NCBI RefSeq assembly: GCF_001937665.1
Contig: NZ_MSKL01000006.1
Location: 62,001-126,000, forward strand
Source: Actinomyces oris
Lineage (GTDB): Bacteria; Actinomycetota; Actinomycetes; Actinomycetales; Actinomycetaceae
Length of the DNA: 64,000 nucleotides
Direction of reading: 5' to 3'
Shown: positions 869-54,602 of the stretch, one piece after another
Layout of the letters: each line of letters starts with the position of its first letter
Position numbering within the stretch: the first letter of the stretch is position 1
Notes under the pieces: model-generated
Databases searched by the model: none
What the model was told of the DNA's origin: nothing
The model's input: only the letters and a program-made list of their open reading frames with translations
Position numbers and translations under genes: made by a program

Positions 869-1948
869 TCAGGCACGGGCCTTGTCCCGGCGTTCACGTG
901 GCGGGGCCGTTGTGTCGCGGACAACAAGCTCAGGGACCACCCGGTAGAGGCGCCCGCCCAGAGGCCGGTCCTCACCGGCCACCTCCGCCGGGATGTGGCC
1001 GTCCTGGTCCGGGTGCATCCGGGCCAGCAGCGCCCGCACCGCGACCTCGGCGATGAGGCCGGCATCCTGGCGCACCGTGGTCAGGGAGAAGGCCGAGGCC
1101 GCCGTGACCGGGATGCCGTCGTAGCCGGTGACGGCCAGATCCTCCGGCACCCGCACCCCCTGACGGCGCAGCTCCATGAGGGCCCCGACGGCGCAGTGGT
1201 CGTTGAAGCACAGGAGCGCCTCGGGGAGCTCACCGGTCTGGATGAGGTGGTGGACGGCCCTGGCCCCGCTGTCCTCATCGCCGCCCCCGGGAACCACCCG
1301 CGCGCCTCGCCCCAGGCCTCGCAGCTCCATGGCCTGGCCGAATCTCTCGATCCGTCGCCCTGCGGCAGTCTCCTGCCCACCGTCCACGTGGGTGATGCGG
1401 CGGCGCCCGGTGTCGACCAGATGATCGACGAGCAGCTGGATGCCGACGTCGTCACGGGAGTGGACCTCGTCGACGTCCCCCAGCTCGGTGCTGGTGCCGA
1501 TGAGGACCGTCGGGGTGCGGTCCCCGATGCAGGCCAGGGCGTCAACGGAGAGGTCGGGGTCGATGAGGATGAGGCCCTCGCAGCGCTGGAGCAGCAGCGA
1601 GCGCAGTCCGTCGGCCACATCACGGTGCGGGGTGGAGGTGGCCAGCACCAGCGCGTGATCCAGAGCGGAGGCCGCCTGGAAGAGCCCGTCCACAATGAGC
1701 CCCTGGTATGCCTGCCCGACGGCGAAGCTGGCGCCGATGAGCCCGGTGTGGCTGCGGCGCAGGAACTGGGCGCGCGGGTCCGCCTGGTAACCGAGATCGG
1801 CGGCGATGCGCAGGATCTCGCCACGGGTCTTCTCGGCGACACCGTCGGAGCCGTTGAGAGCCGCCGAGACGGTGGAGATGGAGCGGCCGGCGCGTTCGGC
1901 GACGGTCCTGATCGTGACTCGCCCACCTCGTCCTCGAGGTCCTTTCAC
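869..1948 (-). CDS. LacI-family transcriptional regulator of the adjacent sugar/inositol genes
   Basis: This is a LacI/GalR repressor of 359 aa. The N-terminal helix-turn-helix (about residues 11-35, VAERAGRSISTVSAALNG) is followed by the hinge and a periplasmic-binding-protein-like effector domain (GLIGASFAVGQAYQGL, LLVDHLVDTGRRRITHV, CFNDHCAVGALMELRRQG, VTGYDG). I chose GTG 1946-1948 because AAAGGGAG lies 8 nt upstream and the HTH then starts near residue 11; the frame stays open upstream to ATG 2038. It is divergent from the dehydrogenase gene and shares a 282-bp control region with it. That region holds palindromic boxes built from TTGTC/GACAA half-sites, so it probably represses the neighbouring operon. 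The inducer is unknown; an inositol or keto-inositol is a guess. Confidence 0.93.
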   Translation of the reverse strand: MKGPRGRGGRVTIRTVAERAGRSISTVSAALNGSDGVAEKTRGEILRIAADLGYQADPRAQFLRRSHTGLIGASFAVGQAYQGLIVDGLFQAASALDHALVLATSTPHRDVADGLRSLLLQRCEGLILIDPDLSVDALACIGDRTPTVLIGTSTELGDVDEVHSRDDVGIQLLVDHLVDTGRRRITHVDGGQETAAGRRIERFGQAMELRGLGRGARVVPGGGDEDSGARAVHHLIQTGELPEALLCFNDHCAVGALMELRRQGVRVPEDLAVTGYDGIPVTAASAFSLTTVRQDAGLIAEVAVRALLARMHPDQDGHIPAEVAGEDRPLGGRLYRVVPELVVRDTTAPPRERRDKARA

Positions 1949-2109
1949 GGCAGACGTCTCCCTTTCCACGCCGTTGTGCCTCACGAACCTGCATGATCCG
2001 CGGGATCCGGAGTCCATCCTTGGACACCAGTTGAGCACATCCTATCCGACAACACCGGTGAGCACGTAGGCCCTGCTCAGAGCAGGTCATCAGACCTCAC
2101 ACTCCCCTC

Positions 2110-2138
2110 TTGTCAGGACAAAGGTGCTCTGATATCTT
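2110..2138 (+). promoter_or_regulatory. Promoter 1 of the sugar/inositol locus with overlapping palindromic operator
   Basis: TTGTCA (2110-2115) and TATCTT (2133-2138) are separated by 17 bp, a good sigma70-type spacing. The -35 hexamer is embedded in the box CTTGTCAGGACAAAG (2109-2123), whose TTGTC and GACAA arms are inverted. The identical 15-mer recurs at 5223-5237 over another -35 element. A repressor bound here would block polymerase, and the divergent LacI protein is the obvious candidate. Confidence 0.72.
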
Positions 2139-2203
2139 CCTGTGACGTCATTAACGACGAGTGCTTCCCGGGTCTTCCGGACGCACTTCCACACACGCAG
2201 CAG

Positions 2204-2219
2204 CCGACAATGTTGTCGG
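2204..2219. promoter_or_regulatory. Second palindrome, possible auxiliary operator in the 5' leader
   Basis: CCGACAATGTTGTCGG has perfect 7-bp arms around TG. It uses the same GACAA/TTGTC half-sites as the promoter box but in the opposite order. It sits in the transcribed leader, 11 nt before the chosen start of the dehydrogenase gene. It may be a second repressor site or an RNA hairpin near the ribosome binding site. Confidence 0.45.
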
Positions 2220-2230
2220 GAAGGACCGTT

Positions 2231-3427
2231 ATGGCCAATAAGTCAATACTGGGCATCGGAGTCATCTCCTTGGGCTGGATGGGACGGCTTCACTCCCGCA
2301 GCTACCGCGCCATCACCGAACGCTTCCCCGAGCTGGGGGTGACTCCACGGCTGGTCGCCGCCGCGGACCCGGTGGACGAGGTGCGCCAGGAGGCGGTGGA
2401 CAACCTGGGCTTCGAGCGGGCCTACGCCGACTACCGAGATCTGCTGGCCGACCCCGAGGTGGAGGCCGTCTCCATCTGCGCCCCCAACTTCCTCCACCAC
2501 GAGATGGCCCTGGCGGCCGTTGAGGCCGGCAAGCCCTTCTGGATCGAGAAGCCCATGGGGGTCAGCGCCGAACAGTCCCGGGAGATCGCCCAGGCCGCCG
2601 AGAAGGCGGGGCTGATGACGGCCGTCGGCTTCAACTACCGTCACACCCCGGCCATTGAGTACCTGCGCTCCCTGGTGCGCGGCGGCGAGCTGGGGCGGAT
2701 CACGAACGTGCGCGTGTGGTTCATCGCCGACTACAACTCCTCCCCCATGGGCCCACTGACCTGGCGAGCCTCGAAGGAGAAGGCCGGGGCCGGCGTCGTG
2801 CCCGACCTCATGAGCCACGGGGCAGACCTGGCCCAGTACATCGTGGGTCGCATCGCCTCGGTCACCGCGGTCACCGACACCTTCATCACTGAGCGCCCCA
2901 TCCCCACCAAGATGGGCATCGGCCACTCGGGCTTCGAGATCGGTGACGAGGTGGGCCCGGTGGAGAACGAGGACTACGTCTCCATGCTCGTGCGCTTCGA
3001 GAACGGCACCGTGGGAACCATGGAGTCCTCCCGCGTCAGCGTGGGACCGCGCGCCGAGTACGTCGTCGAGGTCTACGGCACGAAGGGCTCGGCCCGCTGG
3101 AACTTCGAGCGCCTCAATGAGCTGGAGATCTGCCCCGTGCTCGACGGCGGCGCCTCCCACGGCTACACCCGAGCCATGGCCGGCCCCCAGTGGGGCCAGT
3201 GGCAGCGCTTCCAGCCCGCCATCGGCACCTCCATGGGCTTTGACGACATGAAGGCCATCGAGGCCGCGCAGTTCATCGAGTCCATCGTCACCGGCAAGCA
3301 GGTAGCCCCCTCGACCGCCGACGCCTGGTGCGCCGCGGAGGTCGACGAAGCCGTCGTCGCCTCAGCGGCCGACGGCCAGTGGCACGAGGTCCCCCGCGTC
3401 GAGGGGCGCACCACCTTCGACGCCTGA
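2231..3427 (+). CDS. Gfo/Idh/MocA-family oxidoreductase (inositol/sugar dehydrogenase-like)
   Basis: This is an NAD(P)-dependent dehydrogenase of 398 aa. ATG 2231 is preferred over ATG 2210 because GGAAGGA lies about 6 nt upstream and the Rossmann segment then starts near residue 7. An N-terminal nucleotide-binding fold (GIGVISLGWMG) is followed by the family motif EKP at residues 106-108, which holds the catalytic lysine, and then by the C-terminal sheet domain. DLMSHGAD at 192-199 supplies the Asp/His pair of the active site. Family members oxidise or reduce the hydroxyl/keto group of sugars and cyclitols. With an IolE-type dehydratase and a sugar porter close by, an inositol dehydrogenase role is plausible but not proven. 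It leads the operon that includes the symporter 97 nt downstream. Confidence 0.92.
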   Translation: MANKSILGIGVISLGWMGRLHSRSYRAITERFPELGVTPRLVAAADPVDEVRQEAVDNLGFERAYADYRDLLADPEVEAVSICAPNFLHHEMALAAVEAGKPFWIEKPMGVSAEQSREIAQAAEKAGLMTAVGFNYRHTPAIEYLRSLVRGGELGRITNVRVWFIADYNSSPMGPLTWRASKEKAGAGVVPDLMSHGADLAQYIVGRIASVTAVTDTFITERPIPTKMGIGHSGFEIGDEVGPVENEDYVSMLVRFENGTVGTMESSRVSVGPRAEYVVEVYGTKGSARWNFERLNELEICPVLDGGASHGYTRAMAGPQWGQWQRFQPAIGTSMGFDDMKAIEAAQFIESIVTGKQVAPSTADAWCAAEVDEAVVASAADGQWHEVPRVEGRTTFDA

Positions 3428-52746: not shown

Positions 52747-53730
52747 GTGTCGGTGACATCCGAGCTGAGCGACCCGAGTGACCTGGGTATTCCGGGCGCC
52801 TCGCCCTACATCGAGCTGGACCGGGACCAGTGGTCCGCCCTGGCGTCCTCGGCGCCGCTGCCGCTGACCCAGGCCGATGTCGAGAAGCTGCGGGGACTGG
52901 GCGACCCCATCGACCTGGCCGAGGTCGACGCCGTCTACCGGCCCCTGACCGCTCTGCTGGAGGACTACATCGCCACCTCGCGCGAGCGGGCGCACCGCAC
53001 CGGCGCCTTCCTGGGGGTGAGCGAGCCGCCCACGCCTTTCGTCGTCGCGGTGGCCGGGTCGGTCGCCGTGGGCAAGTCGACGACGGCGCGCCTCATCGCC
53101 CACCTGCTCGCCCGCTTCCCGGACACGCCCCGGGTGGACCTGGTGACCACCGACGGCTTCCTCCTGCCCAACCGGGTCCTTGAGGAGCGCGGACTCATGG
53201 CCCGCAAAGGATTCCCCGAGTCCTACGACCGTCGCGCGCTGCTGGAGTTCGTGGCGGCGGTGAAGTCCGGCAGCGAACGCGTCCGGGCGCCCGTCTACTC
53301 GCACACGGTCTACGACATCGTCCCGGACCGGCACGTGACGGTGGAGCGTCCCGACATCCTCGTGCTGGAGGGGCTCAACGTGCTCCAGCCCGCCCCGCGG
53401 GGGTCTCGGCCGGGGGCCTCGGCCCTCGCGGTGAGCGACTTCATCGACTTCTCGATCTACGTCGACGCCGACCCCGACGACATCCGCCGCTGGTACCTGG
53501 ACCGGTTCCTCACCCTCAAGCACACGGCCTTTACCCAGCCGGGCTCCTACTTCCGGCGCTTCGCCGAGATCCCCGACGACGTGGCCCTAGCTGGAGCAAA
53601 CGAGATCTGGGAGAGCGTCAACCTGGTCAACCTGCGCGAGAACATCGCCCCCACCCGGGGGCGGGCCACCCTGGTCCTGACCAAGGACGCCGAGCACCGC
53701 ATGAGCCGGGTCCTGCTGCGCAAGTCCTGA
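52747..53730 (+). CDS. coaA: Type I pantothenate kinase
   Basis: This 327-aa kinase catalyses the first step of CoA synthesis. It has Walker A AVAGSVAVGKSTTARLIA and then VDLVTTDGFLLPNRVLEERG, MARKGFPESYDRRALLEFV, PVYSHTVYDIVPDRH and VLEGLNVLQP. TQPGSYFRRFAEIPD is a PanK-I feature. The chosen start is GTG 52747, close to the divergent glmS promoter; no ribosome binding site is visible. A single gene with no clear terminator; the next 380 bp lack a gene. Confidence 0.96.
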   Translation: MSVTSELSDPSDLGIPGASPYIELDRDQWSALASSAPLPLTQADVEKLRGLGDPIDLAEVDAVYRPLTALLEDYIATSRERAHRTGAFLGVSEPPTPFVVAVAGSVAVGKSTTARLIAHLLARFPDTPRVDLVTTDGFLLPNRVLEERGLMARKGFPESYDRRALLEFVAAVKSGSERVRAPVYSHTVYDIVPDRHVTVERPDILVLEGLNVLQPAPRGSRPGASALAVSDFIDFSIYVDADPDDIRRWYLDRFLTLKHTAFTQPGSYFRRFAEIPDDVALAGANEIWESVNLVNLRENIAPTRGRATLVLTKDAEHRMSRVLLRKS

Positions 53731-54110
53731 TTCCTCCTCGCGCTGAGACTCCAGTGGGGTGAGCTGCCTGGGGTGAAGTCATCAGCCGGTTCACCGGACA
53801 TAGCGGACGCGGTCGCCCGTAGCCGCCTTGCCAGCCTTGGGCGTGCACTGCACGAGGGTCCGGTGCTACTGCGGGAGGGTTGGGTGTACTCCAGGTAGGT
53901 AGGACCTTCGTACAGTGCGCACAACCCCTGGCCAGTAGATCCCCACCCTCGTGGAGTACACCACTCCCGAGGAGGGGCGTACCCACGCCAGCGTCAAGCG
54001 AGTGCCGCCAGGAGTCCGAAGAGGAACCAAGGATGTCCAAATCGGTGACAAAGGCCTGGATCGTTCTCACATAGACGAAGCAAAACCGCACGATTCCAAG
54101 GTTCTCGTTC
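53731..54110. other. Gene-poor stretch downstream of coaA
   Basis: This 380-bp stretch shows short frames but no convincing protein. It contains GGTGTACTCCA near 53,884 and its inverse TGGAGTACACC near 53,950, and the left arm of the inverted-repeat element described next. Its mixed composition and lack of a gene suggest decayed or inserted DNA. Confidence 0.5.
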
Positions 54111-54154
54111 ATGCCGCCTAGGGACTGGAGGTCCCTTTGTCACCGATTTGGACA
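54034..54154. repeat. 121-bp element bounded by 21-bp perfect inverted repeats
   Basis: Bases 54034-54054 and 54134-54154 are exact inverse complements: TGTCCAAATCGGTGACAAAG plus G at the left end. The inside is 79 bp with no gene. The size and the TG...CA ends resemble a MITE or the remains of an insertion element, although I see no clear flanking target duplication. It could also be a large RNA hairpin. It sits immediately left of a truncated gene remnant. Confidence 0.7.
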
Positions 54155-54602
54155 CCAACAGACCGATTCCCCCGAAGAGTCCGGTGCGGCGGGCCTACTA
54201 GGTCGCCTCGATCCGCGCGCCGCCGAGCAGCTCATGAGATCTTCCAGGATGCTCGCCCAGGTGGTCAGGGCGATCCGGGAGACATCGAGGATCGTGGCCT
54301 CGCGCGGCGTTGATCTGAGGCGCTACCGCGGCGAACTGCTCGCCTACCGGCTGCCGACCGCCGTGTCCGCGCCCCTCATGAAACGGATGTTCGCCAGGAA
54401 TCTCCTCACCCGACGGATCATGACGCTGCACGGCAACACCGCTGACCTGCTGTTCGTGTGCCGGACCGTCTACGAGCAGGGCCGGACCAACGGGATCTCT
54501 GCGCCCATCTTCTACAAGAGCTACGAGGAGGCCCGCAGCAAGGCCGCTCGCCACGATCAACACCTACCTGGCATGGGCCACGAACGGAAAGAAACGACGT
54601 GA
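54111..54602 (+). pseudogene. Truncated ketopantoate-reductase-like C-terminal remnant
   Basis: The frame codes 163 residues, but the first 18 come from the inverted-repeat element. The rest (ETSRIVASRGVDLRRYRGEL, YRLPTAVSAPLMKRMFARN, LTRRIMTLHGNTADLL, YEQGRTNGISAPIFYKSYEE) resembles the C-terminal helical domain of PanE/ApbA-like reductases. The N-terminal Rossmann domain with its GxGxxG motif is absent, so no reductase activity is expected. The likely history is loss of the 5' half at the repeat element. The family assignment is from motif memory and is moderate. Confidence 0.45.

Follow-up and report, generated by a model that had tools for sequence, protein, structure and literature searches.

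A fixed-length palindromic repeat and a co-varying nuclease gene suggest an unrecognised enzyme-and-repeat partnership in Actinomyces

The stretch of Actinomyces oris DNA analysed here (64,000 nucleotides, hereafter the window; contig NZ_MSKL01000006.1, positions 62,001 to 126,000, from a genome assembly of 3.12 Mb in 46 contigs, G000) contains a short palindromic element between a kinase gene and the remains of a second gene, and the locus raises the question of what this element is, and what spreads or maintains it. The kinase gene, which we take to be coaA (52747..53730, plus strand), belongs to the Pfam PRK family and marks the orthologous locus in relatives. The element (54034..54154, with no strand assigned) is a 121-bp member of a family of 120-bp palindromic repeats consisting of two arms, two free spacers, and a conserved centre. 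Its left arm, TGTCCAAATCGGTGACAAAGG (54034..54054, plus strand), is a probable protein-binding half-site, and its right arm (54134..54154, minus strand) is the perfect reverse complement of the left. The arms are 21 nt each and 100% complementary with 79 nt in between, in agreement with an earlier sequence-only reading of the locus, which had described 21-bp perfect inverted repeats bounding 121 bp; the arm 20-mer occurs in the window at the two arm positions only, with 0 occurrences expected from shuffles. The centre is AACCGCACGATTCCAAGGTT (54084..54103, plus strand), for which the family consensus is AACCGCATGATTCCGCGGTT or variants of it. The window copy is contained in a larger composite repeat (53838..54222, plus strand), to which stretches at three other loci are similar (L105, L107, and L122). 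Just left of the element lies a second dispersed repeat of about 113 bp (53845-53958), with an imperfect 21-nt inverted repeat (53883-53903/53942-53962) and very many copies in a search of the genus.

The gene to the right of the element has a history of its own. An open frame (54111-54602) begins inside the unit, as the sequence-only reading had reported, and we consider this start incidental because homology to intact reductase genes is not seen before about 54214. The remnant itself (54214..54602, plus strand), recognised by homology to those intact genes, is the C-terminal part of a gene whose 5' half was deleted; its frame gave no Pfam match, and from sequence features it presumably belongs to the ketopantoate-reductase-like family. 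Comparison with relatives located an intact reductase gene of ~340 aa directly behind coaA in A. naeslundii (G018), A. johnsonii (G014), G036, G045, and others, of which the window keeps only the C-terminal part, and the earlier description of a gene remnant without its 5' half is upheld. When we aligned the coaA loci of G000, G020, G021, G001, and G036, an insert of ~2.2-2.3 kb was found between the full coaA and a second coaA 3' end in the A. oris genomes G020 and G001 and in G021; the second copy of the 3' end is 72 bp and identical in G020, and the insert of G020 and G001 contains the window's 120-bp unit. In G020 the insert spans 1076-3287 of the locus L274 (G020:C3:31300-37500), and from sequence features we take its frames to be hydrolase-like and HTH-regulator-like. 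Relative to G020, the window's genome lacks a stretch of ~2.5 kb that begins immediately to the right of the unit and reaches midway into the reductase gene. The junction lies at the same point of the reductase gene in G000, G031, and G023, and because G031 and G023 join at the point seen in G000, we read the deletion as inherited. This deletion, and not the 121-bp unit entering or leaving the gene, accounts for the lost 5' half, which had been attributed to insertion or excision damage.

The genome search that the sequence-only reading proposed did find further copies of the arm. At up to 3 mismatches, 35 arms were identified in G000 against 0 for a reversed control; all but two pair at 99-100 bp, for a total of 17 units (16 with both arms and one with a weaker second arm) and two single arms. 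The window copy appears to be one passive member of a dispersed population of units. With a pattern of two arms around an unspecified interior of 74-90 bp, we scanned 213 genomes of the window's family and found units in 24, all of the window's own genus and with 1 to 91 units per genome; among the matches listed, named records with units include Actinomyces oris, johnsonii, naeslundii, bowdenii, dentalis, gerencseriae, and others. The pattern scan found no units in viral contigs. Among the 80 stretches listed of the 100 that matched in named genomes, all come from Actinomyces apart from two Oscillibacter records (L123 and L152), whose 115-bp pattern matches were set aside as different. The length is nearly fixed: 155 of the 161 distinct units collected, the two Oscillibacter units included, measure 120 bp (131 units) or 121 bp (24 units). 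Conserved arms and an exact centre (AACCGCATGATTCCGCGGTT and variants) are separated by spacers of ~28 bp each that are nearly free in sequence. At 15 loci of G000 the neighbours of the units are unrelated, in tandem, convergent, and divergent arrangements, and with no obvious common function or orientation among the genes beside these 15 units, a regulon reading was rejected. In an A. massiliensis record (L120), the unit and its flanks are 99-100% identical to a locus of G000 (L038), compared with 80-93% for other species; we read this near-identity as either recent transfer or contamination.

Units are conserved in place. Across 20 orthologous groups, defined by both flanks being common to at least two genomes, 182 pairs showed identities of 94% in the arms, 94% in the centres, 78% in the spacers, and 84% in the flanks, with 0.97 gap columns per 120-bp unit versus 27.6 per 300 bp of flank; part of the arm and length conservation is built in, because some bases of the arms were prescribed by the detection patterns, as was a length of 112-128, and the centre and most remaining arm positions, which lie outside the search pattern, are equally conserved, with exceptions at arm positions 7, 11, 13, and 14. 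No clean site lacking just the 120-bp unit was found. The only empty site is the coaA locus of G021, which lacks the element together with about 25 bp of flank between two copies of CCCGAAGAG; we read this site as a loss, with the reverse order as the other possibility. A second joined-flank match, L166 versus G014, is interrupted by a small gap. We rejected inversion of the core against its flanks, since nearly all of the 20 orthologous groups keep their orientation; L175 and L142 differ in orientation but look like replaced cores. We also rejected half-unit exchange at the centre in G033: linkage was low everywhere and, because the step across the unit centre was unsupported once distance was matched (60 of 91 units), we claim no recombination hotspot. 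At one G033 locus (L222; G033:C1:374814-374933), the unit is inverted relative to the left flank and left-type flanks occur on both sides, an arrangement as expected from recombination between two copies.

A gene enters the picture elsewhere in the window's own genome, where two units 1.1 kb apart, with the same left arm as the window unit, surround a single gene that stands alone between them and whose 3' end runs into the second unit. Its product of 297 aa matched the Pfam families REase_MTES_1575 (2.4e-5) and DUF559 (0.002), both below curated cutoffs, and the AbiEi models of PADLOC (3.5e-4). REase_MTES_1575 is described as a Vsr-type nuclease domain in a passage of PMC3710099. When the AlphaFold model of the protein (pLDDT 89) was searched by Foldseek, it matched the AbiEi antitoxin (PDB 6y8q; E 1.5e-5) and Rv2827c (1zel), and the nuclease half matched I-Bth0305I in its homing endonuclease domain (3r3p; E 4.6e-3, TM 0.69 relative to the target). 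By sequence, the PDB entry that matched best was an endonuclease-like protein (3hrl; E 0.039) at profile positions 218-280. The alignment behind the AlphaFold model, the profile search, and the search of other genera (A1) contains one wrong-frame row (L397, G013); the unit positions and Mantel values given below use the correct frame for this row. Within the alignment E190, D217, E227, and D229 are invariant or nearly so, and these are putative active-site residues. By fold, the ~297-aa protein joins an AbiEi-like half for DNA binding to a Vsr-like nuclease half.

Homologues of this nuclease occur in 41 of the 49 genus genomes, and their genes are regularly accompanied by units. We fetched 30 homologue loci and scanned them for a TGT...ACA inverted repeat; matches were found at 29 loci, and 47 of the 49 matches are exactly 120 bp, compared with 1 of 18 coaA loci and 1 match in 150 shuffled loci in the controls. 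The one locus with no match, that of G005, is shorter (2874 bases). At 27 of the 30 loci the downstream unit begins between -136 and +52 bp relative to the stop codon, and at 21 an upstream unit has its end 96-214 bp ahead of the start. Arms vary greatly from one gene lineage to another (TGTCCAAATCGGTGACAAAGG, TGTCAAAATCGATGACAAACG, and TGTCCGTCAGAATGACATTGG are examples) and are largely self-complementary throughout; length and centre are kept across these differing lineages, G007 being an exception at 128-129 bp. Arm distance follows protein distance, with a Mantel r of 0.81 over 29 genomes (0 of 5000 permutations; kinship ignored) and of 0.65 over the 12 proteins under 75% identity (1 of 5000 permutations; kinship ignored). 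The dispersed units follow the gene of their own genome in part: at variable arm positions in 10 genomes, the fraction of dispersed arms with the nuclease-flanking variant was 0.52 for the own genome's variant versus 0.21 for that of other genomes (1 of 10000 permutations, kinship ignored), with exceptions in G022, where 0 dispersed arms carry that variant, and G003, with only 0.19. Units also occur with no close nuclease in G009 and G023, each with 6 units, the former having 0 homologues and the latter a best homologue of 36% identity.

The same association was seen beyond the close homologues with one generic palindrome scan, applied alike to the paralogues, the other genera, and the main set, where it found palindromes at 26 of 30 loci, against 1 of 18 among the coaA controls and 1 of 80 among the shuffled ones. 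Paralogues of 34-53% identity have flanking palindromes of their own at 15 of 20 loci, on both sides at 11 of them, and a paralogue palindrome beginning GGTTTGAGGATT is itself dispersed, with 16+16 arms in G042, 11+10 in G016, 4+7 in G008, and 13+16 in G006. In other genera, surveyed within the window's taxonomic family, a palindrome was found at 10 of 30 homologue loci. G078, of another genus, has the gene flanked on either side by perfect 120-bp units, with 46+48 arms genome-wide; its relative G079 has 27+26 arms, or about 27 units of the G078 type, and 0 nuclease homologues in the search of other genera. A repeat of fixed length and a nuclease gene that co-varies with it suggest an enzyme-and-repeat partnership that had gone unrecognised, and we infer that the nuclease spreads or maintains the units.

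Two other explanations look to the unit by itself. The first holds that the unit acts as a structured RNA or a single-stranded hairpin of about 120 nt, and it draws on the complementarity of the 21-bp arms, on their covariation, and on the window copy, which folds better than its shuffles (z -5.5). When 131 units of 120 bp were reduced to 54 non-redundant ones, however, pairing-type covariation appeared only at arm columns 11-14 with 107-110 and none paired the two spacers; folding energy was unchanged when the spacers were shuffled (mean z -0.02) or the right spacer was swapped between units (0.11), and Rfam contained no match for the unit. Only the arms pair, which leaves a hairpin very improbable, including the old RNA hairpin that the sequence-only reading had offered as an alternative. 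Because shuffling and swapping the spacers have no effect, the unit resembles a pair of end sites with a single centre site between them, held at fixed spacing in double-stranded DNA. That reading had also called the element MITE-like, and this holds for a small, dispersed repeat with terminal inverted repeats and many intergenic copies; as an ordinary miniature transposon, it would be a deletion derivative moved by an insertion-sequence transposase that recognises the 21-bp ends. Yet no target duplication of 1-11 bp was present at the unit ends in 84 non-redundant flank pairs (reduced from 154 flanks), where MITEs would show one, and the flanks display a weak symmetric preference for C or T at +1 and C at +9 (292 flanks reduced to 122). 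Nor did the G000 arms, or the other genomes among the matches listed, yield a full insertion sequence with these ends, for which the sequence-only reading had advised a search. In G033, many of the units are enclosed in a ~530-bp element that has outer ends AAGGTTATTC and, in several copies, a 5-bp target duplication, the same outer ends being carried by ~880-bp insertion sequences (L359-L361), which we take to be IS5-like. The unit can therefore travel as a passenger, but the duplication belongs to the larger surrounding element, and its outer ends were not seen beside the aligned A. oris copies. The exact 120-bp length, free spacers, and in-place conservation are unexpected of a decaying element, and we judge a miniature transposon of the ordinary kind to be improbable.

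The remaining explanations accept both the gene and the units and differ on what connects them. If the two were linked by descent with no functional link, the gene and units should be mostly vertical, as they are, and the Mantel and within-genome tests would not object, as they ignore phylogeny; but units recur in two positions, at the stop codon and ahead of the start, around genes whose proteins share 34-99% identity and whose arms are unrelated, a layout that the coaA control loci hardly ever show, and co-inheritance as the whole explanation is scarcely credible. A different possibility is that the unit is a binding site useful to the host, kept for a cellular role (domain organisation, supercoiling, or regulation), with the nuclease-family protein turned into a DNA-binding regulator, or one from the outset, and the flanking copies as its operator. 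That units are retained at 20 orthologous loci with their arms, centre, and length conserved is consistent with such a site, as is their persistence with no close nuclease in G079, G009, and G023, and an AbiEi-like half together with upstream inverted repeats fits autoregulation. A host site sits poorly, however, with copy numbers from 0 to 91 among the 49 genus genomes and with the lack of any obvious common function or orientation among the genes beside the 15 G000 units; an operator does not explain the copy downstream of the gene, and a mere regulator does not call for putative active-site residues that are invariant or nearly so. We hold this explanation to be unlikely, with some real chance of being right.

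The explanation that we favour, and consider rather probable, is that the unit serves a chromosomal nuclease as a dispersed, non-autonomous partner site, the nuclease binding the arms, cutting the centre, and propagating the copies. According to a passage of PMC7319586, AbiEi and Rv2827c bind 23-bp inverted repeats upstream of their own genes, and AbiEi bends promoter DNA. By analogy, the AbiEi-like half would bind the 21-bp arms, and two or more protein molecules would bend the 120 bp, the fixed length setting the geometry of the bent complex; the nuclease half would then act at the centred motif, and repair of the cut would copy or homogenise units within the genome in a manner that may be homing-like or REPIN/RAYT-like. 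The upstream copy is probably also the operator of the nuclease gene itself. For a wider proposal we see an even balance of chances, namely that a class of AbiEi-Vsr nucleases, selfish or symbiotic and each encoded with a copy of its own fixed-length palindrome on either side, propagates and homogenises that palindrome throughout the genome, with several independent lineages coexisting in Actinomyces and related genera, each with its own arms.

Among the closest known systems is REPIN/RAYT, which the nuclease and its units resemble in logic (PMC3116915). Both have dispersed extragenic inverted-repeat units with a cognate gene that adjoins copies of its own units, and in both the gene lineages differ in their units. 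A RAYT, however, is a tyrosine (HuH, Y1) transposase, whereas Pfam and fold searches of the enzyme here gave matches to REase_MTES_1575, AbiEi, and I-Bth0305I, pointing to an AbiEi-like and Vsr-like nuclease, and to no tyrosine transposase; the units here have a set length of 120 bp, a conserved centre, arms of 21 bp, and spacers that do not pair, so that in place of a hairpin including the spacer, the arms pair and the spacers stay at chance. Because enzyme and unit anatomy differ, we do not file the nuclease and its units under REPIN/RAYT. Vsr-like (EDxHD) homing endonucleases such as I-Bth0305I share the modelled fold of the nuclease half (3r3p), but here the gene is free-standing between palindromes, has an AbiEi-like half, and is accompanied by a dispersed palindrome population; no intron or intein was seen. 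AbiE type IV toxin-antitoxin systems (AbiEi, Rv2827c) share the modelled N-terminal fold (6y8q and 1zel), a winged-helix antitoxin half to which both PADLOC and the fold match point, as well as inverted repeats of 21-23 bp upstream of the gene; they differ in that here the C-terminal half is, by fold, a nuclease, another unit adjoins the stop codon, and units occur genome-wide.

Dispersed palindromes are common in bacterial genomes. ERIC, Correia, and similar repeats of ~100-150 bp resemble the unit in size, palindromic ends, and dispersed intergenic copies, and differ from it in sequence; we know of no nuclease partner of the AbiEi-Vsr kind for them. To our knowledge, a cognate enzyme has been recognised for few dispersed palindromes, RAYTs for REPs being the main case. 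Among the papers listed by our searches of open-access full texts, we saw no report of a DUF559/MTES_1575 nuclease paired with a palindrome or of the Actinomyces repeat. Here an enzyme of a different class lies between copies of a palindrome and changes with it, and the maker or keeper of such repeats is therefore testable in one cultivable genus. The partnership would also give a role to proteins of the REase_MTES_1575/DUF559 type.
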